64,000 nucleotides of DNA, taken from positions 3,472,001 through 3,536,000 of the forward strand of contig JACTVC010000003.1 in the NCBI GenBank assembly GCA_018417955.1, written 5' to 3'. The translations under genes and the position numbers were made by a program. This DNA is from Laccaria trichodermophora (lineage: Eukaryota; Basidiomycota; Agaricomycetes; Agaricales; Hydnangiaceae). This document shows, one piece after another, positions 22,819 through 61,736 of this stretch; position 1 is the first letter of the stretch, and the number at the start of each line of letters is the position of its first letter. The notes beneath the pieces were generated by a model. It saw only the letters and a list, made by a program, of their open reading frames with translations, was not told the origin of the DNA and did no database searches.

Positions 22819-25584
22819 TCAATCAGATTCAGAGACATTAGATTCTGCATGTTGTTCATCCAAACCCAAGTCTTCATCATCACCATTAATCTCCTGAGAC
22901 TTTGCTTTGCGTTTCTGTTGAGTGAGGACATGCTTTGTGTGATAAAACAACATTGCATGTAAAAACCAGTTGAAATTTCCAGGTTTCATGCATTTGAGAA
23001 TTGGCTCAAATCCACCAAGCCATGCATTCAATTGTTCACATACTTGGGTATTGAATGCTCGCTTAGCATGTGGACGTCCATTGTCATCAAATTCAATGAT
23101 GACAAGGTTTGGAGCTGAACCATCACCAGGAGAAGGATTGCAATATGTTTGGCAAAGAAAATCAGTTACACGATGGGTAATATAGTGGAAAGTATCAACA
23201 ATAAATCTTGTTGTGTGTTTCCATATTGCATCCCAACTTCCATTGCTAACAGCAGTTCGAAAAACTTGACATGCTTTGTCAATACAGATATAGTCAGGGC
23301 AAGATTCTGGCATTGGATAAACAGCTTCTAAAAAGCACAAAATATTTGTTGTTGACTCAGACCTATCAAACTTTGTCCATGCAATTACAACACCACATGG
23401 GGCACAAATGGTTTCCACACAGTAGAATCGTGCTGAACTAAATAGTTAGGAGGTAAAGGTGGTTCCTCATTAGCATCATCATGGCGCTGTGGGTTTGGTC
23501 CTCTTCTTTGTGGATTCCAAGGTTGAGCTTCCCCAGGCCTTTGTAACATTCTCCGAATACCTGAACGAGTTTGACGAGTTTGATATTTTGTAAATTTTCG
23601 CCACTCTGCCTGATGTCCTTCACATGCAGAGGTGTCTCCAAATCTGTTGTTTGTACAGTCACATACAAGGCATCGGGACCCATATTCTTCATTGTGCACA
23701 TCACACAATGAGGCACCACAAGAATTTGAAAGATCATTTACACAATCATCAATTGCACAATGCTATAAATGTCAAGTTAGTAATTATTATAGTCAGAATA
23801 ACCTTTAAATGATTCACCGTTGGTCCCATAACAACTCCATCAAGTACAACCATTGTGACATTTCTTTTGTCAACATCCATATCATCATCAGAGTTATCCT
23901 GAGAGGTAGGAGATGCTGGGCATGGTTGGGTGGAACTCTGTTATCTTCTGCCAAGGGTGGTACAGCTTGATTTTCATCAACTCCCACTACAGCTGCAGGA
24001 TCATTCATAACAGCATCACTAGCTTTCTTATATGGCTGACTACATTCACTGCATGCATGCTGATCTGCTGCTCTGATAATTCCCTGTTCCCCTAAAAGAT
24101 CAAATGCCTGTGTAGTGACTTCTGTTATGTTCAAAGGATCATTGAGTTCTAGGTCAATCTTGGATTCTGCTGCAATTGTGCGCAAAGAATCTTGTACAAA
24201 GGCCTGCCAAATGTGAGCACGGGATAGATTTGTTGACTTTGTTCCATAGGTAACATTCCAATATTGTGAATATGCAGAAGCAGAGCCATGGAAGCTATAC
24301 ATTGCATTGATCACAGAGCTTGAAAACAATCGATCCACCCATAGATTACTGCCAATTTTTAGATACTTTGCTGAGTTGAGGTAAACTCGCTTTGGTTGCT
24401 TAGCTCCACCAAACTCATCAAAAAAGTGTTCATGATCTGCAGAATAAGATGTTTCACGATCTGGACATTTTGCTGTCAAAACTGAAACCTTTTTATAGAT
24501 TTTGTGATCTTTAATCAATGTCACTGAGGGTATGTCACGTTTCCATGTGGCTTGCACCAGTGATCTGGGCTTACATGTTGCTGTTCCACACACAAGTGAT
24601 CCTGGACATATCATATGAACAGGCTGAAGAGCTTTCTGGGAAACAGGAAGTAGCTTTCCCATGTAAGCATCTTGGTCATCATATGGAGTTAAATTCAAAT
24701 TGACAGCCATATCATTCAGCTTTCCTGCAACCAGCTTGACCTTGTCATGGGGGGTTGAATCATCCTCATCTTCATCACTATATAAGGAAATAGCTGTGGA
24801 GCCCAATTGATCAATCAATGCCCTAGCTAAAGCAATCATCCATCCAGTGGTCTGAGTCTTGTTTTCACCTTGGAATTCTGGGTGTTGTTGTCGAAAATGG
24901 AGATTCAACAAGTCCACATTTTCTGTAATTGTGAATAAAAGGGTCAAGACAGTTGCCAAAGAGATGTTAGATCCAAAGGTTGATTCAATGATTTGATTAA
25001 ATGCAGAAAAAGATATTACGCTCAATTCTGTAAACCAATTAATTCCATTAGTTAAAATTGAAAACAAAACAAAAAAACAAAAAAACAAAAAAACAAAAAA
25101 ACAAAAAAACAAAAAAACAAAAAAACAAAAAAACAAAAAAACAAAAAATAAATAAAACAAGAGAAATTAAAATACACACGGCTGGAGATGAGCAGGAGTG
25201 CCCTTGGCATTCTCCACTTTGTCTTCATGCTGATGATCAGCCCATGTCTTTCTACTGCAAGTGGTGAGGGAGCTAAAAGAGACAAAGCTGAGAAAAATGA
25301 AATAAATACCTCTTTTTCCCCTTGGCCCCAGTTTTCTTCCCCTTCCCCTTCTTCCCTCCTTTCTCTGCATCATTTGACTCCTCTACAGCAATGGCAGCAT
25401 CATCAATGTCATCATCACCATCATTCCCAACAGTCTTGTTGTGCTTGTTAGCTGACTCATCAGCATTGGATTGCTATCGCTTCCAGCTGGTGGACTTAGG
25501 TTTGGCAGGCACAACAGGTAGAGCAGCAGTACGGTTGGCAGCTTGCTGGTCACGGGCACTCATTGGTGGTGGAGATGGAGCCAT
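22819..25584 (-). pseudogene. KDZ-superfamily transposase with CxC5/CxC6-like cysteine clusters
   Basis: Start ATG at 25582-25584 in an ACCACCATGG context. Exon 1 is lysine-rich at its end (GKKGKGKKTGAKGKK). A second short exon ends ...GTPAHLQP, followed by an intron (about 25028-25176) filled by an A7C microsatellite. The main exon runs from 25027 down to about 23814. It holds a cluster with CPGSLVCGTATCKP, then YSADHEHFFDEFGG, then CSECSQPYKKASD. The next exon has HCAIDDC...CDVHNEEYGSRCLVCDC. The last part (23418-22819) carries likely acidic catalytic positions in YICIDKAC, FIVDTFHY and CEQLNAWLGGFE. The architecture matches fungal proteins described as CxC5/CxC6 cysteine clusters associated with KDZ transposases, which cut and paste their element. 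One TAG stop near 25476 in exon 1 suggests this copy is damaged, unless that stretch is spliced out. The lysine-rich acidic C-terminus ends ...ESNVSESD. Confidence 0.7.
25061..25147. repeat. (AAAAAAAC)n microsatellite in a transposase intron
   Basis: About eleven tandem 8-bp units. Because a GTGTGT donor and a TTTACAG acceptor flank it on the minus strand, it lies within an intron. The hydrophobic FFVFLFFC frames through it are not protein. Confidence 0.85.
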
Positions 25585-32840: not shown

Positions 32841-33014
32841 TCCATGCCACTAGTGGCTACCACTATTTATGATTAATCTATGACAACTGTCCAAGAGCCA
32901 TTGTGTATAATGCCACAAGTTTTATGAAAGGCATCTCGTTAGGATTGCCCATCTATTTCATTTGATTTATCACTGGAATCTTTCATAAGTTATAGGCAAG
33001 GATAATGAGATACC

Positions 33015-33900
33015 ATGGGGATATTTCATTAGGCTCTTTGGCCCTTTCATTATCATTTCTGAGACTTTTCATTAGGATATTTCATTAGGCTCCTGCGCTT
33101 TTTCATTACCATTTCTTAGAATTTTCATTAGGATATTTCATTAGGCTCCTTTGCTTTTTCATTACCATTTCTTAGAATTTTCATTAGGATATTTCATTAG
33201 GTTCCTTTGCTTTTTCATTACCATTTCTTAGAATTTTCATTAGAATATTTCATTAGGTTCCTGTGCTTTTTCATCACCATTTCATAGAATTTTCATTAGG
33301 ATATTTCATTAGGCTCCTTTGCTTTTTCATTACCATTTCTTAGAATTTTCATTAGGATATTTCATTAGGCTCCTGCGCTTTTTCATTACCATTTCTTAGA
33401 ATTTTCATTAGGGTATTTCATTAGGTTCCTGCGCTTTTGCATTACCGTTTCTTAGAATTTTAATTAGAATATTTCATTAGGCTCCTGCACTTTTTCATTG
33501 CCATTTCTCAGAATTCTCATTAGGATATTTCATTAGGCTCCTGCGCTTTTTCATTACCATTTCTTAGAATTTTCATTAGAATATTTCATTAGGCTCCTTG
33601 GCACTTTCATTAGGATATTTCATTAGAATATTTGGCCCTTTCATTATCATTTCTTAGACTTTTCATCAGGATATTTCATTAGGCTCCTTTGCTTTTTCAT
33701 TACCATTTCTTAGAATTTTCATTAGGATATTTCATTGTGCACTTTGACCCTTTCATTACCATTTCATTGAAATTTCATTAGGATATTTCATTATGCTCCT
33801 TGACATTTTCATTACGATTTTTTATATTTCTCATTAGGATATTTCATTGAGCACCTTGACAATTTCATTACTTCTCATTAGGCCCTTTGGCACTTTCATT
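33015..33900. repeat. ~57-bp tandem array (TTCATTAGGATATTTCATTAGG units), left copy
   Basis: About fifteen imperfect units, period 56-57 bp, each with two to three TTTCATTA cores and a variable GCTCCTGCGCTTTTTC segment. Inverted counterpart at about 48122-49007. Confidence 0.88.
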
Positions 33901-34254
33901 ACCGAAAACTATATAATAATGATGATATGTATCACATGGGTTGTTGGGAGGGTGGTCACATGACCAATTACCAAAAATAGTCAAAAAGCGAAAGTTGTAC
34001 CCCTGCACTGTAGCTTCCTGAATCTGGTTGAATTATGTTCTGAAGTGCTCCTGTTGTGGAGATATGAGGTAAAGGAATTCCAAAAGCATCGTGTTTTTTT
34101 TTGTTTTTTGCATTTTTTTGCATTTTTCTCCATGAAACAAAACCAAATAACATGATTCCAACACATTTAGAAAGCTAAATGAAAGGGCAACAAATATCAT
34201 ATCATGGGAAAAACTGACCAAAAAAGGAAGGTGCATTCCCTACAAGAGCAATTA

Positions 34255-34640
34255 ACACTGACAGACTACAAGAGTCAGATATAGACTACCAAGTTTACTG
34301 ATAGACTACAAACAGGTCAGACATAGGCTACAAAGTTTACTGATAGACTACAAAAGACTACAAAAGTCGGACTTAGACTACAAAAGCTTGGACTTAGACT
34401 ACAAAATTAGGGTTAGGTGAAAAGGTTTTGTAGTGTCCGCTTTTTTAGACTACAAAAGTTTGTAGTGTGTGCCTTTTCATTAGAAAAGTTTATAGTGTCC
34501 GCTTTTTTAGACTACTACAACAGTTTGTAGTGTGTGCCTTTTCATTAGAAAAGTTTGTAGTGTCCGCTTTTTCATTAGAAAAGTTTGTAGTGTCTGCTTT
34601 TTGAGGCTACAAAAGTTTGCAGTTGACATATAGTTTATAG
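34255..34640. repeat. Cluster of GACTACAAAAG / TTTGTAGTGT motifs, left copy
   Basis: More than a dozen short direct and inverted motifs (AGACTACAAAAG, AAAGTTTGTAGTGTCCGC). They are potential transposase-binding or hairpin-forming sites. Mirrored at about 47382-47767. Confidence 0.75.
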
Positions 34641-35458
34641 TGTCCTTGACTCTGTATAGGTTATGGGGATGAGGTTAAAGGATTGACATGATTTTACATA
34701 TTGCCATTGCTGCAGCATTTACTTTTGACATCATGTACAAGTTGTCTTTCACATCAAGAAAGGCTATTCTATGCCTTCATATTGATAGCTACTGTCCTAT
34801 CTCAGATCATGGTTCTAGGTCCATGTGGATATGGTTTGACAGATTAAATTGCTTTACACATTGCTACTGCCAAATGATTAGTTTTTGACATCATACCCAA
34901 GTTGCCTTTCACATCAGGACAGGCTATTCTCTGATTTCACATTGATAGTTGCTGGTGTGTCTTCACATTGATAGCTACTTGCCTGTCCCAAACATAGTCA
35001 ACTTTGATATCAGCTCTTTGAGGGCAATAGGATGAGCTGAGTGGTCCCTGGATGTATCCTCAAGTCAGGTCATGATGTAGGTTGACAATGTATTGAGACA
35101 GAACAGTAGATATTACTATGAATGGCTTTTTCTGGCTTGAAAACCAACTTAGGCATGATGTGAAAAGCTGATGATGTGGCAACACAAGTACTCATATGTT
35201 ACATTATAGTTCAATGGTACTCCACATGGTCAATTGTACCTATGTACCATAGAGCTACCCCAATGGGGCCAATGCTATCTAGACACTATTGAATAAAGTT
35301 GGGCCCAATGCATGCTTTTACCTTAAGGTGAGATAGTGTGGCCCAATTGTGAAATATCCCGCAACATTGGGCCCAATTGCTATTTAACATGTGATCATAT
35401 GCTGGACCGACAAAAAAGTAGGCCGAAAGATACATCCGAAGACAGGGGAAGGTCACTA

Positions 35459-35697
35459 CTATGACACTGATTTCTCTGCCTTCTCAATCCTTGCTTTGAT
35501 CCGAAGCTCCTCTTCCTTCAGCATGACCATAGTATCCAACTGCCTCAACTGATCCTCTATGTGTGCCATTGCCTCCAAAAGAGCATCTCAAGCTCTCAAA
35601 CCCTCCTCGTATTCCTGATGCAATACCCTGTGGGCTATTCGGGCGTATTCCAGTGGATTGGTAAGTCTTCCCACATCAGGCAACACAACATCAAAAA
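35459..35697 (-). pseudogene. Coiled-coil C-terminal coding remnant, left arm
   Basis: Minus-strand reading gives LPDVGRLTNPLEYARIAHRV, LHQEYEEGLRA, a TGA, then DALLEAMAHIEDQLRQLDTM and VMLKEEEL..IKARIEKAEK up to a TAG. Heptad-like spacing and acidic/basic alternation indicate a coiled coil. The single in-frame stop again replaces an expected arginine codon. It looks like the 3' end of a protein gene captured in the arm, perhaps of the element's lost transposase. The right arm carries the same remnant. Confidence 0.55.
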
Positions 35698-35699
35698 AT

Positions 35700-35880
35700 G
35701 ACATATAGTTTATAGTGTCCTTGACTCTGTATAGGTTATGGGGATGAGGTTAAAGGATTGACATGATTTTACATATTGCCATTGCTGCAGCATTTACTTT
35801 TGACATCATGTACAAGTTGTCTTTCACATCAAGAAAGGCTATTCTATGCCTTCATATTGATAGCTACTGTCCTATCTCAA
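35700..35880 (+). repeat. Direct duplication of 34631-34810
   Basis: The ~180-bp segment starting ACATATAGTTTATAGTG repeats the sequence at 34631 almost exactly, just inside the end of the inverted arm. It is not mirrored on the right, so it marks an internal rearrangement of the left half. Confidence 0.8.
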
Positions 35881-36560
35881 ATCATACTTGTAGGTTTATG
35901 GGGAACTGGCTAAAGGATTCACATGACTTTACACATTGATTGCTATTGCCACCAGGGCATTCAGTAGATACCCAATGGGACCATAGTAGTTCACATGGTC
36001 AATTGTCCAATGGACCATAGGGCTACCCCAATGGGCCCAATCGTAGTTGACACCATTCGGCCATAGTTTGGCCCAATGTCTGTGAGACATTAAGCAGGCA
36101 TTGTTGGGGCCAACATAACAAAACTATGAGAAGCATAATTGGGCCAAATGAGGGATACACAAAATGAATTGGGCCCATTGGGCCCAATTGAGACCCATGT
36201 TAAACTCCCAACAGCCAAGGTTGGGCCCAATATTGCAAGGCTATTAATTAGGCTATACTGCATTGTTGGGCCCAATGCTCAGTGTAACAAATGCCGAATC
36301 CAGCGGAACCATAACCCTAACCCTGGCAATCCCTGTCTAGCCACAGTCCGGGCTTATGACATCACCTCCAGCACAAAATGGGATACATATTGCAAATACC
36401 GTCGGTAGCACACATGCAGGCCATAAATCAATATTTCCATATCAGCCTGAAATCCTGTTAATTGCTTGAATTCATTTTGGGTTAAAGATAACAGCCGGAC
36501 ATACAACAGCCACCCCGGATGCATAGATAGCATGAGGCATGCTGTATCAAGGACACTTTC
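35881..36560. other. Left-only segment with TTGGGCCCAAT motifs
   Basis: Several ATTGGGCC/GGCCCAAT palindromic motifs (also in the arms at 35240-35390 and 46640-46760). The segment has no mirror image in the right half. Nothing coding. Confidence 0.5.
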
Positions 36561-36576
36561 TTTGCATTTAACGGTC

Positions 36577-37565
36577 AATACCTCCTGGAATATTGTGTTG
36601 CCTCCCAAAGACCATGTGCACTCAATAGATATAAAAACCAAAGATTTTGTCAGCTGGTTGTGCCGAAATCCCTCCAGAAATATTGTGTTGCCTCCCAAGG
36701 ACTATGTGCACTCGATAGATATAAAAACCAAAGATTTCGTCGGCTTGTAGTGCGGAAGTACCTCCGGAAATATTGTGTTGGCTCTTAGAGAATATGTCCA
36801 CTCAACACATGTTAAAACCGAAGATTTCGTCAATTCGTAGTGCTGAAATACCTCCGGAAATATTGTGTTGCCTCCCAAGGACTATGTTCACTCAATACAT
36901 ATAAAAACCAAAGATTTCGTCGGCTTGTAGTGTGGAAGTACCTCCGGAAATATTGTGTTGGCTCTCAGAGAATATGTCCACTCAACACATGGTAAAACCG
37001 AAGATTTCGTCGGTTCGTAGTGCTAAAATACCTCCGGAAATATTGTGTTGCCTCCCAAGGACTATGTGCACTCAATACATATAAAAACCAAAGATTTCGT
37101 CGGCTTGTAGTGCCGAAGTACCTCCAGGAATATTGTGTTGCCTGCCAGCAAATATGTGCACTCAATAGATATCAAAATCGAAGATTTCGTCGGCTGGTAA
37201 TGCCGAAATAACTGTGGAAATATTGTGTTGGCTCTCGGAGAATATGTGCACTCAACACATGTTAAAACCAAAGATTTCATTGGCTGGTAGTGCCGAAATA
37301 CCTCCAGAAATATTGTGTAGCCTCTCAAAGAATATGTGCACTCAACACATCTTAAAACCAAAGGTTTCATCGGTTGGTAGTGCCGAAATACCTCCGGAAA
37401 TATTGTGTTGCCTCCCAAGGACTATGTGCACTCAACAGATATAAAAACCAAAGATTTCGTCGGCTCGTAGTGCTGAAGTACCTCCAGGAATATTGTGTTG
37501 CCTCCCAGAAAATATGTGCACTCAATAGATATCAAAATCAAAGATTTCGTCGGCTGGTAGTGCCG
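36577..37565 (+). repeat. ~90-bp tandem array, left block part 1
   Basis: About eleven units, each with CTCCGGAAATATTGTGTTGC, a TATGTGCACTCAA segment, AAAACCRAAGATTTCGTCGG and a TAGTGCCGAAATA end. Units alternate between a 'CCCAAGGACTATGTGC' and a 'CTCAGAGAATATGTGC' subtype. Interrupted by element D and resumed at 42540. Confidence 0.9.
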
Positions 37566-37905
37566 AAATACCTGAGCTCTTTACACTCCTCCACCTATTC
37601 CTACCAGACTCCTACCAGACTCCCGGATTCCTACTGGATTCCTACTGGACTGGACTAGGACTGGGACAATTTTTATGTTGGCTGATCACCATACAAATTT
37701 TGTGTCCCAGTCCTGGTGGAGTCCTAGTGGAGTCCTAGTAAATTCCTACTTGAATGGTCCCAAATCACAAGGAATTGCGGATTCCTAAGGAATGGGTATA
37801 GTGGAGTCCAGTAGGAATCCAGTAGGAGTCCAGTAGGAATTTCCGAGCACTAGGAGTCCAGTGGGACCAGTAGTTTGTCACTGTTGTTGTTATTATAACA
37901 TATTT

Positions 37906-38002
37906 AAAAAAAGCACAACCACGAGAATTGAACCCTCGACATTATGTACACAGTAGCATATTACAGACACGAGCACTCTACCAGTTACACTACAATGGCT
38001 TT
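37906..38002 (-). ncRNA. tRNA-like Pol III unit in element D
   Basis: Minus strand: A-box-like TAGTGTAACTGG (37981-37992), 45 nt, B-box-like GGGTTCAATTCTC (37923-37935), ten bases, then seven T (37906-37912). Of the three copies this looks most like a real tRNA 5' half (TAGTGTAACTGGTAGAGTGC). A clean acceptor stem is not evident. Confidence 0.62.
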
Positions 38003-38099
38003 GTTATGGATATAAATTATATGCCCTACATACCAACCAGCTGACCTCTTCCCAGAAAGGACGCCGGCAAATTCCGCGAGTGGGAAATTTGCACAACCC

Positions 38100-39035
38100 T
38101 CAACCCACCATCGAAAACCTCTCTCTTCCCACCACCACCCACACCCGTGCCGCCTCGTCACCACCACCACCACCAGTCGCCGCCACCACTCACAACCGCC
38201 CATAGCCGCCACCGTACGCCATCCACGACGCCCACTGACCAACGCCACGTCACCACGATCACCCGTGGCCACCACCAGCATCAAGAACGACGCGAGAACG
38301 CCACATCACAAACAAACGAGCCGCCGGCGAGTCCGAGGCGATGAAAACGGACGATGAGGGACGATCGAGAGGATGCCACGTCGCTGATAGCGACGTGGCA
38401 ACCAAACGACGAACGACGACGACGTCGTCGTTCGTCGTCATACAAAAGTGAGTCCGCCCCCCCTCTTCCATCCCAACCCACCCCGTTAACGACAACGACG
38501 ACAGCCGACGATGACAACCGCCGACGACGATGCCCGCCCATGACGACGACTGCCAACGAGGATGCCCGCCCACGATGACGACCGCCCACAACGACGAGCG
38601 CCCATCCGACCCCGTTAACGACACCCATCACACGACGACGACGACACAAAGACAACGGGCGCCCACCACGTCGAGTGCCCACCACGTCGACCACCCACCA
38701 ATACACGACAACGCCGACACGAAGACACCGAGCGCCCACGCCGAAAGACGACGAGTGCCCACCATTACACGACGACGACGACACGAAGACGTCGAGCGCC
38801 CACGCCGATGAGTGCCCACGACGGCAAGCATTTTCCCTCCCCCTTCTCTGTCCCCTTTCCCTCCCCCCTTCCCTTTCCCTTCCCATTTCCATGTTCCCCT
38901 TTCCTTTCCCCTCCCCCTGTCCCTCCTGTCCCTTCCCCCTCTGTCCCTTCCCCCCCTGTCCCTTCCCCCTTCCTTTTCCCTCTCCCTTCCTTGTCCACCC
39001 CCATTTCCTTCTACCCCCTTCCCTGTCCTCTTCCT
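38100..39035. repeat. GACGAC-rich block and polypyrimidine tract of element D
   Basis: 38100-38830 is rich in CACCACC, CGACGACGAC and CGCCCACC. 38830-39035 is CCCTTCC/CCTGTCCCTT-type. The large frames on both strands are low-complexity artefacts. Confidence 0.75.
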
Positions 39036-39290
39036 CCCTGACCACATTAGATTTGTAGTATACTTTTTGTATATAATTATGTCTATAGTTATCAATATAA
39101 TATTCTATGCTCAAATATCAACTTTGTATGAACTTCTACAGTGGCTTACAGCGCTTTTCACATCTATGCAGAATTGCGTTTGCAAAAATTCTGCAGCTTT
39201 GGTTGTGTTTACTCATTACATCATATGTCTATTTATATAATCTTTATATATCTATGACACTTTGCCATTAGTTTCTTCATTTCCTACCTA

Positions 39291-40360
39291 AATGCCCCCT
39301 TGACACATATCTCGTGACCTCAAAGAACGGATTCCCATCTTGTTCCATGCTCAACACTACAAAGTCAAAGAAATCTGTGAAATTCTTGGTGTACGGAAGT
39401 CTCTTGTCTATCAAACTCTTGCATATCACAGGGATCACGGCGTACCTTACAACCCCGCTGCACGTTTTGCTGGCTGAGGACGACATCGAACTCTAAATCC
39501 TACAAATATAAAGCTTATCCGGAGTCTTCTAAACCAACAACACTGTTTGTACCTTGATGAGATTCAGGAGGAATTGCGCCGGCGTCGCGGTGTCTGTGTT
39601 TCTGTTCCCACCCTGCTAAGGACCCTGCGTTGCCTTCATTTTTCTCAAAAAGTTGTCTCTGCTCGTGCCCTTGAGCGTAATGAACTGGAGCGCTCCATGT
39701 TCATGAACCACATTGCAGAACTCGTGACTGATCCAGCACAGCTCATGAGTATCGACAAGGCAGCTCGCAATAGCAAGACTTCGCTTAGAAAGATGGGCTG
39801 GTCTTTGAAAGGCCAACGATGCTTCCAGTGAAGGATTTTTGTTCGTGGCCAGAGGGTTTCTATTTTACCGGTTCTCACGATTCAAGGTATCATCGCATAC
39901 GACGTTATCCCCGGCTCTGTCACCAGTGCGTGCTTCACAAACTTTGTGCGAGAACATGTGGTAAGTGAATCAATTCTTCATTATGTGCATGAAAAATTGA
40001 TATGCATTCAGATTCCACTGACCAACCCATGGCCAGGTCCCTGAAGTGTCCTTCTACTTGATAATTGCAACATTCACCATTCTGAAGAGCTTTGGCACTT
40101 GGTTGAAGATGAAGCTCGTAAGTCATTGTCAAGCTAATTCTCTGAATAATTGCCTTTGATGACTTTTAGACTGCAAACTCGTATTCTTTCCACCCTACTC
40201 ACCCAACCTCAACCCTATTGAGCAAGCTTTTTCTGCAATCAAAGCATTTCTATGTCGCAACTGGCTTGATGAGTCACTGGGTTTGATTGATCAGGCATGT
40301 GAGAGTATTACATCAAAGATGGCTTGGAATTTCTTTCGAGCTTCGGGATACGTCGTTTAG
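39291..40360 (+). pseudogene. Tc1/mariner-type (DDE) transposase, inactivated
   Basis: HTH region: DLKERIPILFHAQHYKVKEI then CEILGVRKSLVYQTLAYHRD. Catalytic domain: LYLDEIQEELRRRRG, first Asp in MSIDKAARN (the usual DE is DK here), a tract FVRGQRVSILPVLTIQGIIA, second Asp in LLLDNCNIHHSEEL, and the final acidic residue in YSPNLNPIEQAFSAIKAF, ending GYVV then TAG at 40358-40360. Introns are plausible at 39958-40010 and 40118-40168 (GTAAGT donors). TGA stops at 39475-39477 and 40042-40044 replace arginine codons, and a third stop follows the CFQ at 39831. The protein would bind the terminal repeats and paste into TA; this copy cannot be made whole. Confidence 0.82.
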
Positions 40361-40502
40361 GTTACAGTTGGACATCATTCGAGTGCATACATAATGAGAG
40401 TAATGACAGGCAGAATACTAATGGTGATATGTAATGACGGTTTAGTGGTTGCTACAGTATGTATTGAGAGTCCAACAAGGCGAAAAGCAGGAATAAACGG
40501 TA

Positions 40503-42131
40503 TCAGAAATCGTCCTCTCCCTCACAAGCATCTGAGTATTCAGCTGCCAAGACTGGGACCTGCCCTGCGGGGACCTTGACAAGCTCCTTCACCTTGTCAC
40601 AATAGTACCACCACTCATACTCATCACTACGGCCATTGTAACCCATTTCCATGCCTGAACCAAAGTACGACGCGGACCCTCCTTCAACAAACCGCTTCTC
40701 GAAACAAATGGCGTGTGTGATATCGCGTGAGGGCGATGCTATCTGCGCACACTTACATTTGGCCTCTGGGCTTGCCCACCAAGCCTCTGCACCACGCTTG
40801 AGACGAATGACGTCGCCCTCAGTAAAACCACACTTCGCAATAGCAGCGTCGGACACATAGGGGATAATATCGGGGCCATACCGACAATGAGAAAGCTGGC
40901 CCTCGCATTCGAGCGCATTGGGAATTCCTAAGTTATCTTGGGCATGGTGAAGAAAGCGTGTTAGCTTGGTAGGTGTATTTTGTGCTGGAGAGGCTGGGCT
41001 AGGGGTAGGGGGTCGGCGGATTGGGGATGGGAGATTCTTTGCACCAAGAAGGGTTGTGAGGGTCGAGAAGATAGAGGCGACGTGGCCAAGGCTGTCGGAA
41101 GGAGAATTAGTCGAGGAGCTAGAACTGTTGCTGGTTGGGCTTCGTCCAGGTAGAAGCCAGCCACGATTGGCCATATCGAAGGCCTGGCAGTTGGGAGGGT
41201 CAGAAAGGGTTGCCGTGTTGTCATACTTATAGAATGAATGAGGCAGTGGTCAGTGTTGACGAATGGATCCAAAAATGAGTCTTACCAGCACTCTGCACCA
41301 TTGGGCTAGCATGATTGGTGTGAGCGGTAGGCGCTCTCCATCATTGGTTACGTAGGTGTAGCCCGAATCGTTTGGGTTTTGATATTTCTTCTCCAAGAGG
41401 CCACGAAGGCGACCTAGTTCCCGGTCCATCGCAGTATAGCCCTAATGTGCGTGAGACCATGACTCAGCTACAGGCAAAAGCAGAACTAAGGGCTTACCTT
41501 TTCATCCTCACCACTGCCTTCATCAATCTCCTGTCCATCTGAACCGCTATCACTCTCAGAACCTGACCCACCCGCCTTGCGCTATTGCAGATTAGACCAA
41601 TACATGAATTTATTGATACTCGACGTACCTTCTTTGATGCATCCTTGATAGCATTGATGTGGACTAGGACTGTGAGCTTGTTCACCTTCTTCTCGCGCGC
41701 GTTATCGATCAAATCTTTGTATTCACTGTGCTGTTCCACATCAACAGCATCAGCTTTGCTAGATACTTGACTGTGAGTGTGCCATCAACTGATTATAAGC
41801 GAAAGACTTACGCGCGGGCTGGTGGGGTGAGAATCTTGATTGGAAACCGAGAAGACGATGTTACTGGCCTGTATTTTGTAGCAAGTCCATGAGCAGCAAG
41901 AATCTGGTTCAAAAATGAAATGTAATTGTCTTTGGTGTTATCAAAATCGTAGCTGAATTGTTTGTTCTTCGTGTCAGTCTTGAGCTTGGCCTTTGCAGGT
42001 TTACCGGTTGGAGTTTTCCCTTGTGCAGCAGGAAGAAAGACAGTGAGGGCCACAGCAACCGTGGCAACTGTGAAGGTCAAGTTTGAGGGATTGGGGGTTG
42101 GAATGAGCTCAGAGGATGGAGCGCTGGCCAT
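40503..42131 (-). CDS. Cargo protein of the Tc1 element, 474 aa, SAM-domain-like C-terminal part
   Basis: Five exons: 42131-41812, 41770-41629, 41581-41498, 41441-41286 and 41225-40503. All introns are GT-AG (38-60 nt), every junction is in phase, the sum is 1,425 nt, and there is no internal stop. Start: MASAPSSELIPTPNPS. Residues about 15-40 are hydrophobic (TFTVATVAVALTVFLPAAQG). Then come a lysine-rich stretch, a charged helix (DLIDNAREKKVNKLTVLVHI), an acidic Ser/Gly/Asp linker (SGSESDSGSDGQEIDEGSGE) and a proline/serine region. The fold-like segment YGPDIIPYVSDAAIAKCGFT / EGDVIRLKRGAEAWW resembles the end of a SAM domain (protein interaction). The C-terminal EYEWWYYCDKVKELVK suggests a second small domain. 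Function unknown. Upstream ATGs at 42245-42251 in the same frame could lengthen the N-terminus. The reading frame survives although the neighbouring transposase is dead. Confidence 0.78.
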
Positions 42132-42539
42132 CGGTTGGAAGGAAAGAGTGGGGACATTCAATGTCGTGGGGCGCTGGCACTCATATAGACGCGCTGAGGC
42201 TTCTCGCAAAAATTCTGTCAAGGGAAATGCCGAGGTAGCAAACATAACCAAAGCTACAGAATTCTAACAAACGCAATTCCGCATACATGTGAAAAGCGCT
42301 GTAAAGTCTGACTTCATGATAGAAAGTGGTTACTCCAGTAGGAATTCCATCTCTGAAACATTGTATTCACTTTGTTTAAGGTTCAATTGGAGTCCAGTAG
42401 GAGTTCAGTAGGAGTCCAATAGGAGTCCAGTAGGAGGGGAATGTGAAAATGCTTTTTTGGAAAGAATGTTGAAATCCAGTAGGAATCCGGGAGTCCAGTA
42501 GGAGTCCGGTAGGAATAGGTGGAGGAGTGATAAGTATTG

Positions 42540-43465
42540 AAATACCTCCGGAAATATTGTGTTGGCTCTCAGAGAATATGTGCACTCAACACATGTTAAA
42601 ACCGAAGATTTCGTCCGCTGGTAGTGCCGAAGTACCTCCGGAAATATTGTGTTGCCTCCCAAGGACTATGTGCACTCAATAGATATTAAAACCGAAGATT
42701 TCATCGGCTGGTAATGCCGAAATACCTCCGGAAACATTGTGTTGCCTCTCAAAGAATATGTGCACTCAACACATCTTAAAACCGAAGGTTTCGTTGGTTG
42801 GTAGTGCCGAAATACCTCCGGAAATATTGTGTTGCCTCCCAAGGACTATGTGCACTCAATAGATATTAAAACCGAAGATTTCGTCGGCTGGTAGTGCCGA
42901 AATCCCTCCGGAAATATTGTGTTGCCTCTCAAAGAATATGTGCACTCAACACATCTTAAAACCGAAGGTTTCGTCAGTTCGTAGTGCCGAAATACCTCTG
43001 GAAATATTGTGTTGCCTCCTAAGGACTATGTGCACTCAATAGATATTAAAACCGAGGATTTCGTCGGCTGGTAGTGCCGAAATCCCTCCGGAAATATTGT
43101 GTTGCCTCTCAAAGAATATGTGCACTCAACACATGTTAAAGCTGAAGATTTCGTCGGCTGGTAGTGCCGAAGTACCTCTGGAAATATTGTGTTGCCTCTC
43201 TAGAAGCCAAAGAATAGATATTAAAACCGAAGATTTCATTGGCTGGTAGTGCCGAAATACCTCCGGAAACATTGTGTTGCCTCCCACAGAATATGTGCAC
43301 TCAACACATGTTAAAACCGAAGATTTCATCAGGTCGTAGTGCCGAAATCCCTCCGGAAATATTGTGTTGCCTCCCAAAGACTATGTGCATTGAATAGATA
43401 TTAAAACCGAAGATTTCATCAGCTGGTAGTGCCGAATTACCTCCGGAAATATTGTGTTGCCTCTC
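42540..43465 (+). repeat. ~90-bp tandem array, left block part 2
   Basis: About eleven further units of the array interrupted by element D, same orientation and subtypes as 36577-37565. Two units at 43190 and 43455 end in a variant CTCTCTAGAAGCCAAAG that also opens the central loop. Confidence 0.9.
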
Positions 43466-44480
43466 TAGAAGCCAAAGTAGCTGTGAAACCCAAAGATTTC
43501 AGCTTCTGTTAGTGCCGAAATTCTTCTTTGATCTCCTGGAAACATTGCTTGACCCTCTGGGAACATTGTTTGACCCTCCAGGAACATTGTTTGACCTTCC
43601 AGGAACATTGTCTAACCATACACTACTATTCTTTCACTGTCTGGAAACATTGTTTCACCTCTGTGGAATATAGATACCCAGTATTATCATTTGTTGATCT
43701 TCTGGGCCACAATGTCATGTAAAACAAACTGTACTGAAGTTTTTTCCACCGCAGTCAAGGTTGTACATAACCTGGGGAGAATGCTTTGAGTTCACATACC
43801 AGATATGTATGAATACGATTCAACAGAAGCATGTTGACTAGTGTTTGAAAGTTAGGTTACTTAACTGGAAATTAACCATCATTCTGCAACAGCAGACTGA
43901 AACGGGGGTAAGAGAGTTGATTCATCTTTTTCTTGATCAATCAATATGTCACTGAGTAAATACTTGTCTTGTATTCCATAATCAGTGTAAAGATGAATGT
44001 CAAGACAGACAAATTTTGGAGATTTGAAAGCATTTCATGATAATACTACAAGATGAGTAAGTGCTCACTGACGCATTGATGGATCAAGAAAGAGATTGAA
44101 TGCCCTCCCTTACCCCCCAGTCTTTTTCCGGAATTGCAAGCAGATTCAGAATGATGGTCAACTTACTTCTGTTCAACCATATTGATATGTATCTGGTGTG
44201 TGAACTAAAAGGTTATGTATAACCTTGACTGGAGTGAATTTTCAACAATTTGTTTTATACTACATGGTGGCTCAGAAGATCAACCAATGATGATGGTGGG
44301 TATGAATATTCCCCAGAAGGTGAAACAACAGTTGTATATGGTCAGACAAGGTTCCAGGAAGGTCAAACAATGTTCCCAGGGGGTTAAACAATGTTCCCGG
44401 AAGGTCAAACAATGTTTCCAGGAGATCAAAGAAGAATTTCGGCACTAACAGAAGCTGAAAGCTTCGGGTTTCACAGCTAC
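43466..44480. repeat. Central inverted loop of the giant element
   Basis: 43480-43617 and 44340-44475 are inverted copies built from ~27-bp units (GGAACATTGTTTGACC). They flank about 720 bp of unique sequence (43618-44339) with no recognisable gene. This is the symmetry centre of the palindrome. Confidence 0.8.
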
Positions 44481-44489
44481 TTTGGCTTA

Positions 44490-46310
44490 TTGAAGGTGCA
44501 CATATTTTCCGAGAAGCAAAACAATATTCCCGGATGTATTTTGGCATTGCCAGCCACCGAAACCTTTGGTTTTAACATGTAGGCAACACAATATTTCCAG
44601 AGATACTTCAGAACAACCAGCTGATGAAATCTTTGGTATTAATATCTATGGAGTGCACATATTTTCTGGGAGGCAACATAATATTCCCGGAGGTACTTCG
44701 GCACTACAAGCCGACGAAATCTTCGGTTTTAACATTTGTTTAGTGCACATATTCTTTGAGAGGCAACACAATATTTCCAGAGGGATTTCGGCACTACGAG
44801 CCGACGAAATCTTCGGTTTTAACATGTGTTGAGTGCACATATTCTCCAAGAGCCAACACAATATTTCCACAGTTATTTCGGCACTACCAGCCGACGAAAT
44901 CTTCGATTTTGATATCTATTGAGTGCACATATTTTCTGGGAGGCAACACAATATTCCTGGAGGTACTTCGGCACTACGAGCCGACGAAATCTTTGGTTAT
45001 ATGTATTGAGTGCACATAGTCCTTGGGAGGCAACACAATATTTCCAGAGATACTTTGGCACAACCAGCTGATGAAATCTTCGGTATTAGTATCTATGGAG
45101 TGCACATGTTTTCTGGGAGGCAACACAATATTCCCGGAGGTACTTCGGCACTACCAGCCGACGAAATCTTCGGTTTTAATATCTATTTGGTGCACATATT
45201 TTCTGGGAGGCAACACAGTATTCCCGGAGGTACTTCGGCATTACGAGCCAACAAAATCTTCGGCTTTAACATGTGTTGAGTGCACATATTCTTTGAGAGG
45301 CAACACAATATTTCTGGAGGTACTTCGGCACTACCTGCCAACAAAATCACAATGTTTCCGGCAGTACTTCGGCACTACCAGCTGACAAAGTCTTCGGTTT
45401 TAACATGTGTTGAGTGCACATATTCTCCGAGAGCCAACACAATATTTCCACAGGTATTTCGGCACTACCAGCCAATGAAATCTTCGGTTTTAACATGTGT
45501 TGAGTGCACATATTCTCTGAGAGCCAACACAATATTTCTGGAGGTACTTCAGCACAACCAGCGGACGAAATCTTCGGTTTTAACATGTGTTGAATGGACA
45601 TATTTTCCAGGAGGCAACACAATATCCCTCAACCAGCTGCCGAAATCTTCGCTTTTAACATGTATTGAGTGCACATAGTCTTTGGGAGGCAACACAATAT
45701 TTCCAGAGGTATTTCGGCACTACCAGCCAACAAAATCTTCGGTTTTAATATCTATTGAGTGCACATATTTTCTGGGAGGCAACACAATATTCCCGTAGGT
45801 ACTTCGGCACTACCAGCTGACAAAACCTTCGGTTTTAACATGTGTTGAGTGCACATGTTCTTTGAGAGGCAACACAATATTTCCGGAGTTACTTCGGCAC
45901 TACCACCCAACAAAATATTCGGTTTTAACATGTGTTGAGTGCACATATTCTCTGAGAGCCAACACAATATTTCTGGAGGTATTTCGGCACTACCAGCCAA
46001 TGAAATCTTTGGTTTTTACATCCATTGAGTGCACATAGTCCTTGGGAGGCAACACAATATTTCTGCAGGTATTTCGGCACTACCAGCCGATGAAATCTTC
46101 GGTTTTAACATGTGTTGAGTGCACATATTCTCTGAGAGCCAACACAATATTTCCGCAGGTACTTCGGCACTACAAGCTGACAAAATCTTCGGTTTTAACA
46201 TGTGTTGAGTGCACATATTCTTTGGCAGGCAACACAATATTTCTGGAGGGATTTCAGCACTACCAGCTGACGAAATCTTCGGTTTTGACATGTAGGATTT
46301 CAATTTGAGC
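44490..46310 (-). repeat. ~90-bp tandem array, right (inverted) block
   Basis: About nineteen units of the same 90-bp repeat as 36577-43465 but inverted. Consensus on this strand is TTCGGCACTACCAGCCGACG, AAATCTTCGGTTTTAACATG, TGTTGAGTGCACATATTC, then GGCAACACAATATT. Frames in it encode short periodic peptides but differ from unit to unit. Confidence 0.9.
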
Positions 46311-46324
46311 CGAAGATCACCTCA

Positions 46325-46564
46325 TTTTTTGATGTTGTGTTGCCTGATGTGGGAAGACTTACCAATCCACTGGAATACGCCCGAATAGCCCACAGGGTAT
46401 TGCATCAGGAATACGAGGAGGGTTTGAGAGCTTGAGATGCTCTTTTGGAGGCAATGGCACACATAGAGGATCAGTTGAGGCAGTTGGATACTATGGTCAT
46501 GCTGAAGGAAGAGGAGCTTCAGATCAAAGCAAGGATTGAGAAGGCAGAGAAATCAGTGTCATAG
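46325..46564 (+). pseudogene. Coiled-coil C-terminal coding remnant, right arm
   Basis: Plus-strand twin of 35459-35697: FDVVLPDVGRLTNPLEYARI ... EEGLRA, TGA, DALLEAMAHIEDQLRQLDTM ... EKAEKSVS, TAG at 46562-46564. The same premature stop in both arms means the stop predates the arm duplication or was spread by conversion. Confidence 0.55.
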
Positions 46565-48121
46565 TAGTGACCTTCCCCTGTCTTCGGATGTATCTTTCGG
46601 CCTACTTTTTTGTCGGTCCAGCATATGATCACATGTTAAATAGCAATTGGGCCCAATGTTGCGGGATATTTCACAATTGGGCCACACTATCTCACCTTAA
46701 GGTAAAAGCATGCATTGGGCCCAACTTTATTCAATAGTGTCTAGATAGCATTGGCCCCATTGGGGTAGCTCTATGGTACATAGGTACAATTGACCATGTG
46801 GAGTACCATTGAACTATAATGTAACATATGAGTACTTGTGTTGCCACATCATCAGCTTTTCACATCATGCCTAAGTTGGTTTTCAAGCCAGAAAAAGCCA
46901 TTCATAGTAATATCTACTGTTCTGTCTCAATACATTGTCAACCTACATCATGACCTGACTTGAGGATACATCCAGGGACCACTCAGCTCATCCTATTGCC
47001 CTCAAAGAGCTGATATCAAAGTTGACTATGTTTGGGACAGGCAAGTAGCTATCAATGTGAAGACACACCAGCAACTATCAATGTGAAATCAGAGAATAGC
47101 CTGTCCTGATGTGAAAGGCAACTTGGGTATGATGTCAAAAACTAATCATTTGGCAGTAGCAATGTGTAAAGCAATTTAATCTGTCAAACCATATCCACAT
47201 GGACCTAGAACCATGATCTGAGATAGGACAGTAGCTATCAATATGAAGGCATAGAATAGCCTTTCTTGATGTGAAAGACAACTTGTACATGATGTCAAAA
47301 GTAAATGCTGCAGCAATGGCAATATGTAAAATCATGTCAATCCTTTAACCTCATCCCCATAACCTATACAGAGTCAAGGACACTATAAACTATATGTCAA
47401 CTGCAAACTTTTGTAGCCTCAAAAAGCAGACACTACAAACTTTTCTAATGAAAAAGCGGACACTACAAACTTTTCTAATGAAAAGGCACACACTACAAAC
47501 TGTTGTAGTAGTCTAAAAAAGCGGACACTATAAACTTTTCTAATGAAAAGGCACACACTACAAACTTTTGTAGTCTAAAAAAGCGGACACTACAAAACCT
47601 TTTCACCTAACCCTAATTTTGTAGTCTAAGTCCAAGCTTTTGTAGTCTAAGTCCGACTTTTGTAGTCTTTTGTAGTCTATCAGTAAACTTTGTAGCCTAT
47701 GTCTGACCTGTTTGTAGTCTATCAGTAAACTTGGTAGTCTATATCTGACTCTTGTAGTCTGTCAGTGTTAATTGCTCTTGTAGGGAATGCACCTTCCTTT
47801 TTTGGTCAGTTTTTCCCATGATATGATATTTGTTGCCCTTTCATTTAGCTTTCTAAATGTGTTGGAATCATGTTATTTGGTTTTGTTTCATGGAGAAAAA
47901 TGCAAAAAAATGCAAAAAACAAAAAAAAACACGATGCTTTTGGAATTCCTTTACCTCATATCTCCACAACAGGAGCACTTCAGAACATAATTCAACCAGA
48001 TTCAGGAAGCTACAGTGCAGGGGTACAACTTTCGCTTTTTGACTATTTTTGGTAATTGGTCATGTGACCACCCTCCCAACAACCCATGTGATACATATCA
48101 TCATTATTATATAGTTTTCGG

Positions 48122-49007
48122 TAATGAAAGTGCCAAAGGGCCTAATGAGAAGTAATGAAATTGTCAAGGTGCTCAATGAAATATCCTAATGAGAAATATA
48201 AAAAATCGTAATGAAAATGTCAAGGAGCATAATGAAATATCCTAATGAAATTTCAATGAAATGGTAATGAAAGGGTCAAAGTGCACAATGAAATATCCTA
48301 ATGAAAATTCTAAGAAATGGTAATGAAAAAGCAAAGGAGCCTAATGAAATATCCTGATGAAAAGTCTAAGAAATGATAATGAAAGGGCCAAATATTCTAA
48401 TGAAATATCCTAATGAAAGTGCCAAGGAGCCTAATGAAATATTCTAATGAAAATTCTAAGAAATGGTAATGAAAAAGCGCAGGAGCCTAATGAAATATCC
48501 TAATGAGAATTCTGAGAAATGGCAATGAAAAAGTGCAGGAGCCTAATGAAATATTCTAATTAAAATTCTAAGAAACGGTAATGCAAAAGCGCAGGAACCT
48601 AATGAAATACCCTAATGAAAATTCTAAGAAATGGTAATGAAAAAGCGCAGGAGCCTAATGAAATATCCTAATGAAAATTCTAAGAAATGGTAATGAAAAA
48701 GCAAAGGAGCCTAATGAAATATCCTAATGAAAATTCTATGAAATGGTGATGAAAAAGCACAGGAACCTAATGAAATATTCTAATGAAAATTCTAAGAAAT
48801 GGTAATGAAAAAGCAAAGGAACCTAATGAAATATCCTAATGAAAATTCTAAGAAATGGTAATGAAAAAGCAAAGGAGCCTAATGAAATATCCTAATGAAA
48901 ATTCTAAGAAATGGTAATGAAAAAGCGCAGGAGCCTAATGAAATATCCTAATGAAAAGTCTCAGAAATGATAATGAAAGGGCCAAAGAGCCTAATGAAAT
49001 ATCCCCA
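48122..49007. repeat. ~57-bp tandem array, right copy
   Basis: Mirror image of 33015-33900; units of CCTAATGAAATATCCTAATG type. Confidence 0.88.
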
Positions 49008-49181
49008 TGGTATCTCATTATCCTTGCCTATAACTTATGAAAGATTCCAGTGATAAATCAAATGAAATAGATGGGCAATCCTAACGAGATGCCTTTCATA
49101 AAACTTGTGGCATTATACACAATGGCTCTTGGACAGTTGTCATAGATTAATCATAAAAGTGGTAGCCACCAGTCTCCATGC

Positions 49182-56771: not shown

Positions 56772-57694
56772 TGTTTGGTAGTAGCATCTTGGAGTGCGTT
56801 GTACCATTTCAAGGCTTCACTAAATCAGCGGCAGAGGGAATCCTGAACTTTCGGTCAGACCAATTTCACCTGCCATCAACGCAATAAATACCTGAGTAGT
56901 AAGTTTATAACCTTGACTTTGAAGAAATTCTTCAACTGTGTTGCACCATGCAGTGGCATTGGGGGAAACATGAAGAAACAGTCGGGATACGAAGTCTAGA
57001 ACTCGGATGTCAACGGCCAGGGACGGCGCAAACGGTGTGGAAGGAAATAATCCATGTTGAAGCAGCTGAATTGCGGCTGGTCGACAATTGCAAAATTGGA
57101 GTTTGAGCCTTTCAAGAACTGGTACGCACTGGTTAGTATCTCAACGCCTTGAAATCAGGAAAGAAACGTACTGCAGAAACGAACTACAATAACATCTAGT
57201 GCTCTTCTGACACACTGACAGTTGAGGGTGGTGGCTATAGCGTCCTCGGCAATTGGCAGGCGAAAGGATTCTGTCGAAGAAACCAGCCGCATGTAAGGCA
57301 TAATGAGGCGAGGGATTACTTCAGATTGCCATCGAATAGTCTGGTTTTCACGTTTTCGTCAGTGATTAGAAACACGAGAAGCCAAGTTGGCGGAAGGAGG
57401 TGAAAAGAACATGATGCCACTGGGATCTTCAAGATCACCAGTGACATCAGCAGTTTGCGAGCTGTCGGCAGAGAGTGATGAACAGCTATTGTGGGGTCGA
57501 TCACCGGCGAAGCCGACCTGTCCTGGCAATGGCTTCAGATTTCTCTGCTGGCTGAACGTTCTCTTGTCTGGTAGGAGTACCAATGGACGAATTCCACTAG
57601 GCCTGGAGAGGTAGTGGAATGTTCTACCGCTTATCGGGGTGTAAGATAATGGGCTGGAGGTTGGTGTGAAATCTTTTGGGATGCGAGGTCGCAT
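56772..57694 (-). pseudogene. KDZ transposase (CxC1-like) 5' fragment
   Basis: ATG at 57692-57694 (MRPRIPKDFTPTSSPLSYTP). After ...NLASRVSNH a TGA interrupts, then NQTIRWQSEVIPRLIMPYMR and NCQCVRRALDVIVVRFC (cysteine cluster). Across an intron follow FCNCRPAAIQLLQHGLFPST, PFAPSLAVDIRVLDFVSRLF and LHVSPNATAWCNTVEEFLQ, then FSEALKWYNALQDATTK at the junction with element F. This order (W-x-VIPRL, cysteines, LAVD-x-RVLDF, WCN, WYNxLQD) is that of the N-terminal cysteine-cluster region of basidiomycete KDZ transposases. The catalytic part is missing, cut off at 56771. Confidence 0.68.
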
Positions 57695-59236: not shown

Positions 59237-61736
59237 TAGTGTTGCCGCGGCTTTGGCTTTTAGCTGGTTCAAGCCACAGCTGAGCCGAAATTAAAGCCGA
59301 GCTGAGCCGAGCTGATGGATCTGGCTTGGCTACTGCTTGAGCCGGCTAGAGCCGGGATTTTGAGCCTCATCAACCACACATGCTAGTTCATTCAAAACAA
59401 ATAAAATTGGCTTTTGTTGTACATATTATTTAACTAGTAATAGAATATACTGTAAATGAACCTAAGATCATAGAAAATAGCTAAGAATTGCCCAAGACTG
59501 AGTCACCCCCCACCAAAACAGAAAATGCAACATATCTTCAGAACGCAGACACGCAAACCTCTTGTCTCTTCAGGACCTTCAAACGACACCATAGTAGATT
59601 GTAAACGAGCCCTCAACGATAAAAAAAGGTAAAGAATTGACCGAGATAGAGCTTAACCCCCCAAAACCAGAAAATGTGGAATATCTTGAGAGCGTGGACA
59701 CGCAAACCTCTCGTCTCTTTGGGACCTTCAAACAACACTAGAATACATTGTAAACGAGCCCTCAACGATAAAAAAAGGTAAAGAATTGACTGAGATAGAG
59801 CTTAACCCCCCCAAAACCAGAAAATGTGGAATATCTTGAGAGCGTGGACACGCAAACCTCTCGTCTCTTTGGGACCTTCAAACGACACTATAGTAGATTG
59901 TAAACGAGCCTTAGATCATAAGAAACGATGGAAATTTGACTGACCTAGTGTACTTGCCCCCCCAAACAGAAAATGCAATATATCTCCGGAACGCAGACAC
60001 GCGAACCTCTCGTCTCTTTGGGACCTTCAAACGACACTAGAATACGTTGTAAACGAGCCTTTAACGAAGGAGAATGATGGAGAACTCATGAAGATAGAGT
60101 ACACCCTCCTGCTGAAACTTAGCATGACAGATCTCTCATAAATATGATGGCAGATGCCTCTCGTCTCTTCAGGCCCTAAAATCGACAGCAAATAGCTGGT
60201 AATCAACACTGATTTGGTGGGAAACGGTACAGAACTCACCGAGATACAATATAGCCTCATGGTGTCTATCCAGCACCCATTACATGTTTCTTAGGGCTAT
60301 TATTGGGCTATTCACGTGCCCATTCTTAAGTTATACTATGCAGAACTCGTTTATAATTGGTGTGGTACACTACTTAAGTTTACAGTCATACATACATTGG
60401 GGGGGAGGTGAAATGGGAAAGCAAAAGAGCATCTGTCGTGTCTGAAGCACTATATATACGAGGCACTTTAGGGCGGGTTATGATCTAGGGCAGGCTTAGT
60501 GTAGATGAGGAGCCTGCCCTAGATCATAACCCGCCCTAAAGTGCCTCGTATATATAGTGCTTCAGACACGACAGATGCTCTTTTGCTTTCCCATTTCACC
60601 TCCCCCCCAATGTATGTATGACTGTAAACTTAAGTAGTGTACCACACCAATTATAAACGAGTTCTGCATAGTATAACTTAAGAATGGGCACGTGAATAGC
60701 CCAATAATAGCCCTAAGAAACATGTAATGGGTGCTGGATAGACACCATGAGGCTATATTGTATCTCGGTGAGTTCTGTACCGTTTCCCACCAAATCAGTG
60801 TTGATTACCAGCTATTTGCTGTCGATTTTAGGGCCTGAAGAGACGAGAGGCATCTGCCATCATATTTATGAGAGATCTGTCATGCTAAGTTTCAGCAGGA
60901 GGGTGTACTCTATCTTCATGAGTTCTCCATCATTCTCCTTCGTTAAAGGCTCGTTTACAACGTATTCTAGTGTCGTTTGAAGGTCCCAAAGAGACGAGAG
61001 GTTCGCGTGTCTGCGTTCCGGAGATATATTGCATTTTCTGTTTGGGGGGGCAAGTACACTAGGTCAGTCAAATTTCCATCGTTTCTTATGATCTAAGGCT
61101 CGTTTACAATCTACTATAGTGTCGTTTGAAGGTCCCAAAGAGACGAGAGGTTTGCGTGTCCACGCTCTCAAGATATTCCACATTTTCTGGTTTTGGGGGG
61201 GTTAAGCTCTATCTCAGTCAATTCTTTACCTTTTTTTATCGTTGAGGGCTCGTTTACAATGTATTCTAGTGTTGTTTGAAGGTCCCAAAGCGACGAGAGG
61301 TTTGCGTGTCCACGCTCTCAAGATATTCCACATTTTCTGGTTTTGGGGGGGTTAAGCTCTATCTCGGTCAATTCTTTACCTTTTTTTATCGTTGAGGGCT
61401 CGTTTACAATCTACTATGGTGTCGTTTGAAGGTCCTGAAGATATGACATCCATATTTCAATGCTCTCTCACATCCTCCCCCATTTTTTGCGAATTTATAT
61501 TTATATTTAAAACCCTAGGGTTTCTATTATAGTTCTATGGTTGAAATATACATTACATTGTGTATCCATCAGGTAGACAGCATTTAATTTACCCAGATTT
61601 ATGGTCACATCACTTTAAAAATTATGTGCCGGCTTGAACCAGCTTTGAGTCAGCTAAAAGCCGAGCTGAGCCACTTAAGGAAATTTAGCTGGCTTACATC
61701 AGCCGGCTCTCGGCTAGCCGAGCCGCGGCAACACTA
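59237..61736. mobile_element. hAT-type foldback palindrome, 2.5 kb
   Basis: Ends TAGTGTTGCCGCGGCT ... AGCCGCGGCAACACTA; TSD GTGCCTCA (59229-59236 and 61737-61744), perfect over 8 bp. GCTGAGCC/GGCTCAGC repeats follow each end. The core 59570-60495 and 60512-61437 are near-perfect inverted arms around a ~16-nt loop (position x pairs with 121,007 minus x). Each arm holds about four tandem ~149-bp units (marked by GGGACCTTCAAACGACAC). There is no transposase; TAGTG ends with an 8-bp TSD are typical of hAT. Confidence 0.88.

Follow-up and report, generated by a model that had tools for sequence, protein, structure and literature searches.

How does a retrotransposon gene of a mushroom come to hold a palindrome of 16 kb, and is that palindrome one element? 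The locus lies in Laccaria trichodermophora (assembly GCA_018417955.1, contig JACTVC010000003.1), and we studied it within a window of 64,000 nucleotides, which is C23:3472001-3536000 in our numbering. The whole genome (59.03 Mb in 77 contigs) was searched for related sequences, and the match lists for repeats hold the best candidates. An original prediction, made from the letters of the window, had described a single palindromic transposon with a satellite-like interior and no coding gene. Our analysis points to a different history, which we consider quite probable: three transposons are nested within each other, and the left arm of the outermost one was overwritten from its right arm by repair copying. 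Two of the three are palindromic and appear to be linked to the KDZ (Kyakuja-Dileera-Zisupton) transposons.

Three nested insertions with separate target duplications

The outermost transposon (hereafter the outer element) begins with CACTAGTGG.. on the left and, read inward, with GACTGGTGG.. on the right. Its host is the pol gene of a gypsy retrotransposon, and it has no gene of its own. The right gypsy flank matches reverse transcriptase and RNase H, and the left flank gives integrase-type matches that fall below their cut-offs.

The outer element is bordered by the target site duplication (TSD) TCCATGC. By itself this 7-mer is common (12 occurrences in the window against 10.7 expected), and it carries weight because of its place and because of an empty site. 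An uninterrupted gypsy copy, identified from match coordinates alone, is present on C19 at the insertion point: C19:216221-216468 corresponds to the left flank up to 32847 (95% identity) and C19:215782-216228 to the right flank from 49174 (91% identity). These two matches overlap by 8 bp. The eighth matching base varies in other copies, where only 7 bp are repeated, each time with the same terminal G. We therefore read the outer TSD as 7 bp, with the eighth base coincidental here, and assign base 49174 to the outer element. A hAT transposase, which the 8-bp match had suggested as the mover of the outer element, was rejected, as other copies show 7 bp. Domains for hAT dimerisation are common in this genome (89 matches), and among the matches listed none falls in the coding copy on C3 described below.

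The second transposon, M, is palindromic through its 90-bp arrays, with a loop between the two orientations, and ends in 5'-CA..TG-3' without an obvious perfect terminal inverted repeat (TIR). It was inserted about 150 bp from the symmetry axis of the outer element, a distance that rules out the exact tip of the outer hairpin as its site. Its TSD is 7 bp in both copies that were read, namely the one in the window and a 7,207-bp copy on C67 (TSD ATTCATG). Pairs of M ends are found at 10 further places in the genome, with 98-100% identity and 6.0-7.6 kb apart, and also at C7:231825-238590 with 91% and 97% identity. Every match to the 90-bp array among the matches listed, of 381, lies inside a copy of M.

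The third transposon, X, sits within the left 90-bp array of M and splits it. Among the matches listed for X, 18 of 26 start exactly at 37574 and all the others but one within 7 bp of it. Pieces of a transposase within 39304-40357 carry stops and frame changes; a DDE_3 piece scores above its cut-off (2.6e-7) and an HTH_23-like piece just under (3.4e-5). Because its 9-bp duplication does not fit the TA target duplication of Tc1/mariner elements, we left X unclassified despite the DDE_3 piece. The coordinates of all these features, including the open reading frames (ORFs) noted for X, are collected in Table 1.

Table 1. Positions of the nested transposons and their parts in the window
Feature	Position	Strand	Remark
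Outer element, including nested insertions	32848..49174	.	palindromic, probably KDZ-type
Outer left target duplication TCCATGC	32841..32847	+	length of 7 bp from other copies; empty site on C19
Outer right target duplication TCCATGC	49175..49181	+	seen from C19 empty site
Left arm of outer element	32848..35182	+	near-exact copy of right arm except terminal 18 bp
56-bp tandem array, left arm	33019..33871	+	
519 bp of right end of M, inverted, on left arm	35183..35701	-	
Stump of older left arm, 251 bp	35702..35952	+	continuous with the family once M is omitted
M left target duplication TTGCCAC	35946..35952	+	
Element M, palindromic, with 90-bp arrays	35953..46840	.	split by X; about 5.9 kb if X is removed
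M 90-bp array, part	36577..37573	+	
X left 9-bp target duplication GAAATACCT	37565..37573	+	
Element X	37574..42538	.	decayed DDE_3-type transposase; more ORFs on the other strand
X right 9-bp target duplication GAAATACCT	42539..42547	+	
M 90-bp array, rest of left arm	42539..43463	+	
M 90-bp array, inverted orientation	44581..46293	-	
Outer element, right side: inner remainder, centre and right arm	46841..49174	-	presumed template of present left arm
M right target duplication TTGCCAC	46841..46847	+	
56-bp tandem array, right arm	48152..49004	-	

Transposition of the whole 16-kb palindrome as one unit would account for the one outer TSD and for the nearly continuous inverted arms of 2.85 kb (32848-35701 and 46322-49173, 99.9% identity when the window is compared with itself). 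However, its parts occur separately elsewhere in the genome, breaking at 35182/35183, 35953 and 37574, and M and X each have a target duplication of their own. None of the matches listed outside the window crosses 35182/35183. We regard such a unit as very improbable.

Thus, part of the original prediction stands: a gypsy pol gene does hold a palindromic transposon flanked by a 7-bp TSD, the arms, the TSD and the 90-bp arrays in both orientations around a central loop are confirmed, and the empty gypsy site that it had proposed to look for exists. The idea of one element does not survive. The arms and the 90-bp arrays are not one design, as the arrays and the satellite-like interior belong to M; the supposed lack of a coding gene overlooked the decayed transposase pieces of X; and instead of forming part of an original palindrome, 35183-35701 would have joined it in a later copying event. 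The 56-bp arrays within the arms had not been described.

The left arm and its likeness to the right

Among genome matches to the left arm, 35182/35183 is a breakpoint. On the outer side, 33000-35182 matches palindromes elsewhere, and on the inner side 35183-35600 matches a different repeat, namely M, at up to 100%. Beyond the M sequence lies what remains of an older left arm, a stump in which 35699-35938 is 92.5% identical to 34624-34863. This older arm is continuous with other members of the family across a single copy of the M target site; the best match to the stump across the site (L039) shows 97.5% identity over 711 columns. The copied tract joins the old arm at a 3-bp microhomology, TGA.

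The two arms in the window differ at four positions: 32848, 32852, 32865 and 35502. The first three fall in the terminal 18 bp and are the very differences between the two end types of the family. Another member, L035 (5.3 kb), repeats this pattern: its 2,422-bp arms are told apart by positions 1, 5 and 17 and a single insertion or deletion.

We compared the arms, using the stretch outside the arrays and the centre, in 21 elements (the window and 20 fetched genome regions). At least two arm stretches were obtained from 13 of them and one or none from the other 8. In 12 of the 13, the inverted pair within an element was closer than the best other sampled element, and L033 gave a tie; identities were 98.4-100% within elements versus 95.3-99.8% for the best match in another. 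Both L035 and L036 hold a third arm stretch, at 73-83%. Part of the likeness within elements may stem from recent transposition of elements that were already homogeneous.

These observations suggest the following order of events. A gene-less palindromic transposon related to KDZ would have entered the gypsy pol gene, producing a 7-bp TSD, and M would then have inserted some 150 bp from its axis, again with 7 bp duplicated. After that, damage would have occurred near the outer left end. Repair would have begun to copy the right arm some 18 bp in from the terminus, followed it along its entire length and continued into M, of which 519 bp were taken up. At TGA the new strand would have been joined to what was left of the old arm, the 251-bp stump. 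As the copied tract includes the end of M, the overwriting would be later than M. X would have split M, with a 9-bp TSD, either before or after the overwriting. Because the stump lies on the left, replacement of the left arm is the better reading, and copying would have run from right to left. Its cause would be the repair of a break, perhaps following a cut by a transposase.

The arm might also have been replaced by a switch of template during replication (fold-back synthesis). Long palindromes disturb replication, and the microhomology at the joint is compatible with both routes. On the other hand, in both the window and L035 the tract starts about 18 bp in from the terminus, which slightly favours a cut near the end. 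No observation here separates the two routes, and we see template switching as possible, though doubtful.

Two points weigh against the overwriting of the left arm. At 35502 the base found in M on C67 is that of the left copy, and the right copy differs; either the right arm changed after copying, or this position is evidence against the right arm as the template. Moreover, near-perfect arms are where assemblers fail, and those of the window might be misassembled. The nesting would then be correct and the near-identity of the arms an artefact of assembly or polishing. Such an artefact has to be set against the terminal bases, which retain the two end types of the family, the difference at 35502, the flanks, which are unlike each other and bear the TSD, and the end of the copied tract at the stump of the older arm. 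Other palindromes of the genome have near-identical arms too, but they come from the same assembly. On balance an artefact seems unlikely, and we retain the copying of the right arm as the explanation.

Relatives of the palindromes and the probable KDZ link

The 16-mer at the ends of the outer element, SACTRGTGGCTACCAC, occurs 218 times in the genome (118 forward, 100 reverse), and its reversed control 0 times. All 100 places listed read either CACTAG or GACTGG, with a mixture in none. Among them are 30 convergent neighbour pairs within 20 kb, of which 28 combine one end of each type and two have two G-type ends; 21 of the 30 pairs span 3.3-5.3 kb. Two convergent pairs of outer-type ends, C12:3331298-3343908 and C1:3667878-3677614, lie 12.6 and 9.7 kb apart and are candidate coding or nested copies.

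Both outer-type ends were present in 7 of the 20 fetched regions, always with a perfect 7-bp TSD. In four further regions both ends were located and belong to a related type (CACTAGTA and GAGTGGTAGC); three of these (L044, L046 and L049) show a perfect 7-bp TSD. A single outer-type end was found in 6 of the remaining 9 regions; no end was located in L045, L047 or L050. Together with the window and a copy on C3, and with L048 as the fourth region of the related type, this gives 13 outer-type elements with both ends located, 12 of them with a perfect 7-bp TSD, the exception being L048. As a separate observation, L045:1040-4810 is a near-perfect palindrome of 3.77 kb (99.4%) without a spacer, and a relative of the inner part of the outer element.

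The copy on C3 (C3:744725-755617, 10,893 bp) has both outer ends, the 7-bp TSD CAGGAAG and exons with CxC2 (1.5e-40) and KDZ (3.6e-40) domains. It also carries similar arrays, at 74-81% identity. The sequence that separates these arrays has no match in the window, and therefore the inner 1.2 kb of the palindromes did not come from this copy. In the genome as a whole, the KDZ domain gives 182 matches and CxC2 gives 150; neither has a match in any of 14 control genomes. Since the coding C3 copy, with its KDZ transposase, shares the ends of the outer element and has similar arrays and a 7-bp TSD, the outer element is best read, on sequence grounds, as a non-autonomous foldback element of KDZ transposons. 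The original prediction had made its case depend on other copies with the same ends and had proposed a search for a coding version, and both were found. Abundant KDZ-linked foldback elements and a coding relative coexist in one genome.

An assignment of the outer element to the P superfamily, like Galileo, would be suggested by its 7-bp TSD and its long arms with tandem repeats; Galileo also has 7-bp TSDs and long arms. However, CxC2 and KDZ domains are present in the coding copy, which shares the ends of the outer element, and a scan of 8 ORFs from that copy reported no P-type family. We rejected this placement as extremely improbable.

In both the outer element and M, the TSD falls within the 7-8 bp of KDZ transposons, and both show the structure of foldback elements: very long inverted arms, internal tandem repeats and a TSD. 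For M, seven spans longer than 10 kb with both M ends (13.3-33.7 kb), known from match positions alone, all contain a CxC2 match, versus 0.34 expected; C9:1180622-1193944 is one of these spans. Short M-like end pairs on C7 and C24 (5.7-6.8 kb) have no CxC2 among the matches listed. Eleven weaker M-like left ends were also found (83-84% identity over about 89 bp), and 4 of the 11 have a KDZ match, among those listed, 5.0-9.3 kb inward. When read, these four begin CAGGGCATTCAGTAG and have unrelated flanks; they weigh little because they were chosen for their KDZ matches. M likely belongs to the KDZ group, judged from these sequence matches, as a non-autonomous foldback element. Its link is less direct than that of the outer element. 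KDZ transposases would mobilise both palindromes in trans.

Two candidates were set aside. C31:124614-141637, which has CxC2, was left out of the seven long spans, as only the right end of M and an inner-left piece matched. C45:1742681 was considered as a coding M, with a left end and a KDZ match 7.8 kb away. It was dropped because equally scoring KDZ matches on C15 and C56 have no M end next to them among those listed.

Several findings count against the KDZ assignments. L048, with both ends located, has no TSD. The C3 copy has a stop within one frame of its KDZ match, and its gene is only putatively functional. The termini of the outer element do not fit the CA..TG of Kyakuja. Six of the seven long M spans have no KDZ domain among the matches listed (of 182), and in the seventh, C31:415001-448661, the KDZ match lies on the strand opposite to CxC2; all seven are characterised by match positions.

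A wider proposal is tentative, and we give it a little less than even weight: an abundant, so far undescribed class of foldback elements would depend on KDZ-group transposases, with two ends that stay distinct while the sequence inside the terminal 18 bp or so is replaced again and again by a copy of the other arm. The overwriting could run on into neighbouring DNA, in the window the end of another transposon, capturing and doubling it. If so, it would drive the lengthening of palindromes and the birth of new elements with arrays, and, counting M, at least two unrelated foldback end types would exist.

Other features of the window include inverted arrays at 59441-61441 (unit about 150 bp, arms 78-86% identical), perhaps a third foldback element, and a long terminal repeat (LTR) retrotransposon at 7349-14988 with LTRs of about 373 bp (98% identical), TG..CA ends, the 5-bp target duplication ATCAC and a 1,529-aa open frame. 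Two further features are on the minus strand: an open frame at 23814-25166 with a match to CxC5, a cysteine cluster known from KDZ transposases (6e-24), and a CxC2-like match at 56928-57113 (33.5 bits, cut-off 27).

Comparison with known transposons

Among the closest described systems is Kyakuja of Laccaria, a coding KDZ transposon for which the accessible part of the report gives 7-bp TSDs, CA..TG termini and no TIRs (PMC12730594). It shares the 7-bp TSDs with our elements, its KDZ transposase with the coding relative of the outer element, and its CA..TG ends without an obvious perfect TIR with M. In contrast to Kyakuja, which is coding and TIR-less, the elements in the window have no gene of their own, are palindromic and carry tandem arrays. 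The outer element ends in CACTAG..CCAGTC with long inverted repeats, and because of these termini and repeats we did not file it as Kyakuja.

KDZ elements with inverted repeats are already known, since KDZ1 of Cryptococcus neoformans, as far as its description was available, is a coding element of about 11 kb with 241-bp TIRs, 8-bp TSDs and CxC1 (PMC12810828). It differs in its 8-bp TSDs, in CxC1 instead of CxC2 and in its coding capacity, and the portion of that report at hand mentions no palindromic derivative. For Marasmius oreades, PMC8290104 states that TIR motifs of KDZ and Plavaka elements are given in its supplement. In titles and the beginnings of abstracts, with few subscription journals covered, we found no foldback or palindromic KDZ element.

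The foldback elements described in the sources available in part were placed in the Mutator (PMC4079207) and P (PMC3573991) superfamilies. Tetris of Drosophila virilis, assigned to Mutator by its authors, has 8-10 bp TSDs and satellite-like tandem repeats in its inverted repeats, which also formed satellite arrays (PMC4079207, in part). The likeness lies in the foldback structure and the satellite-like repeats; the differences are its TSD length and its free satellite arrays, whereas matches to the 90-bp unit, among those listed, stay inside M copies.

Galileo, of the Drosophila P superfamily, carries tandem repeats inside its long inverted repeats, and the available part of its description proposes that the inverted repeats were extended by recruiting neighbouring sequence through break repair templated by the other arm (PMC3573991). 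Our elements resemble it in the long repeats with tandem arrays and in the proposed extension through repair from the other arm. They differ in the transposase superfamily, in that the outer element would have recruited the end of a foreign transposon, and in that it kept a stump of the arm that was replaced.

The novelty thus lies in the many KDZ-linked foldback elements and in the readable footprint of arm overwriting, which is less exotic than one 16-kb palindrome. The window retains the presumed template, the product and the stump of the overwriting together. With the three side by side, the origin proposed for long inverted repeats becomes testable.

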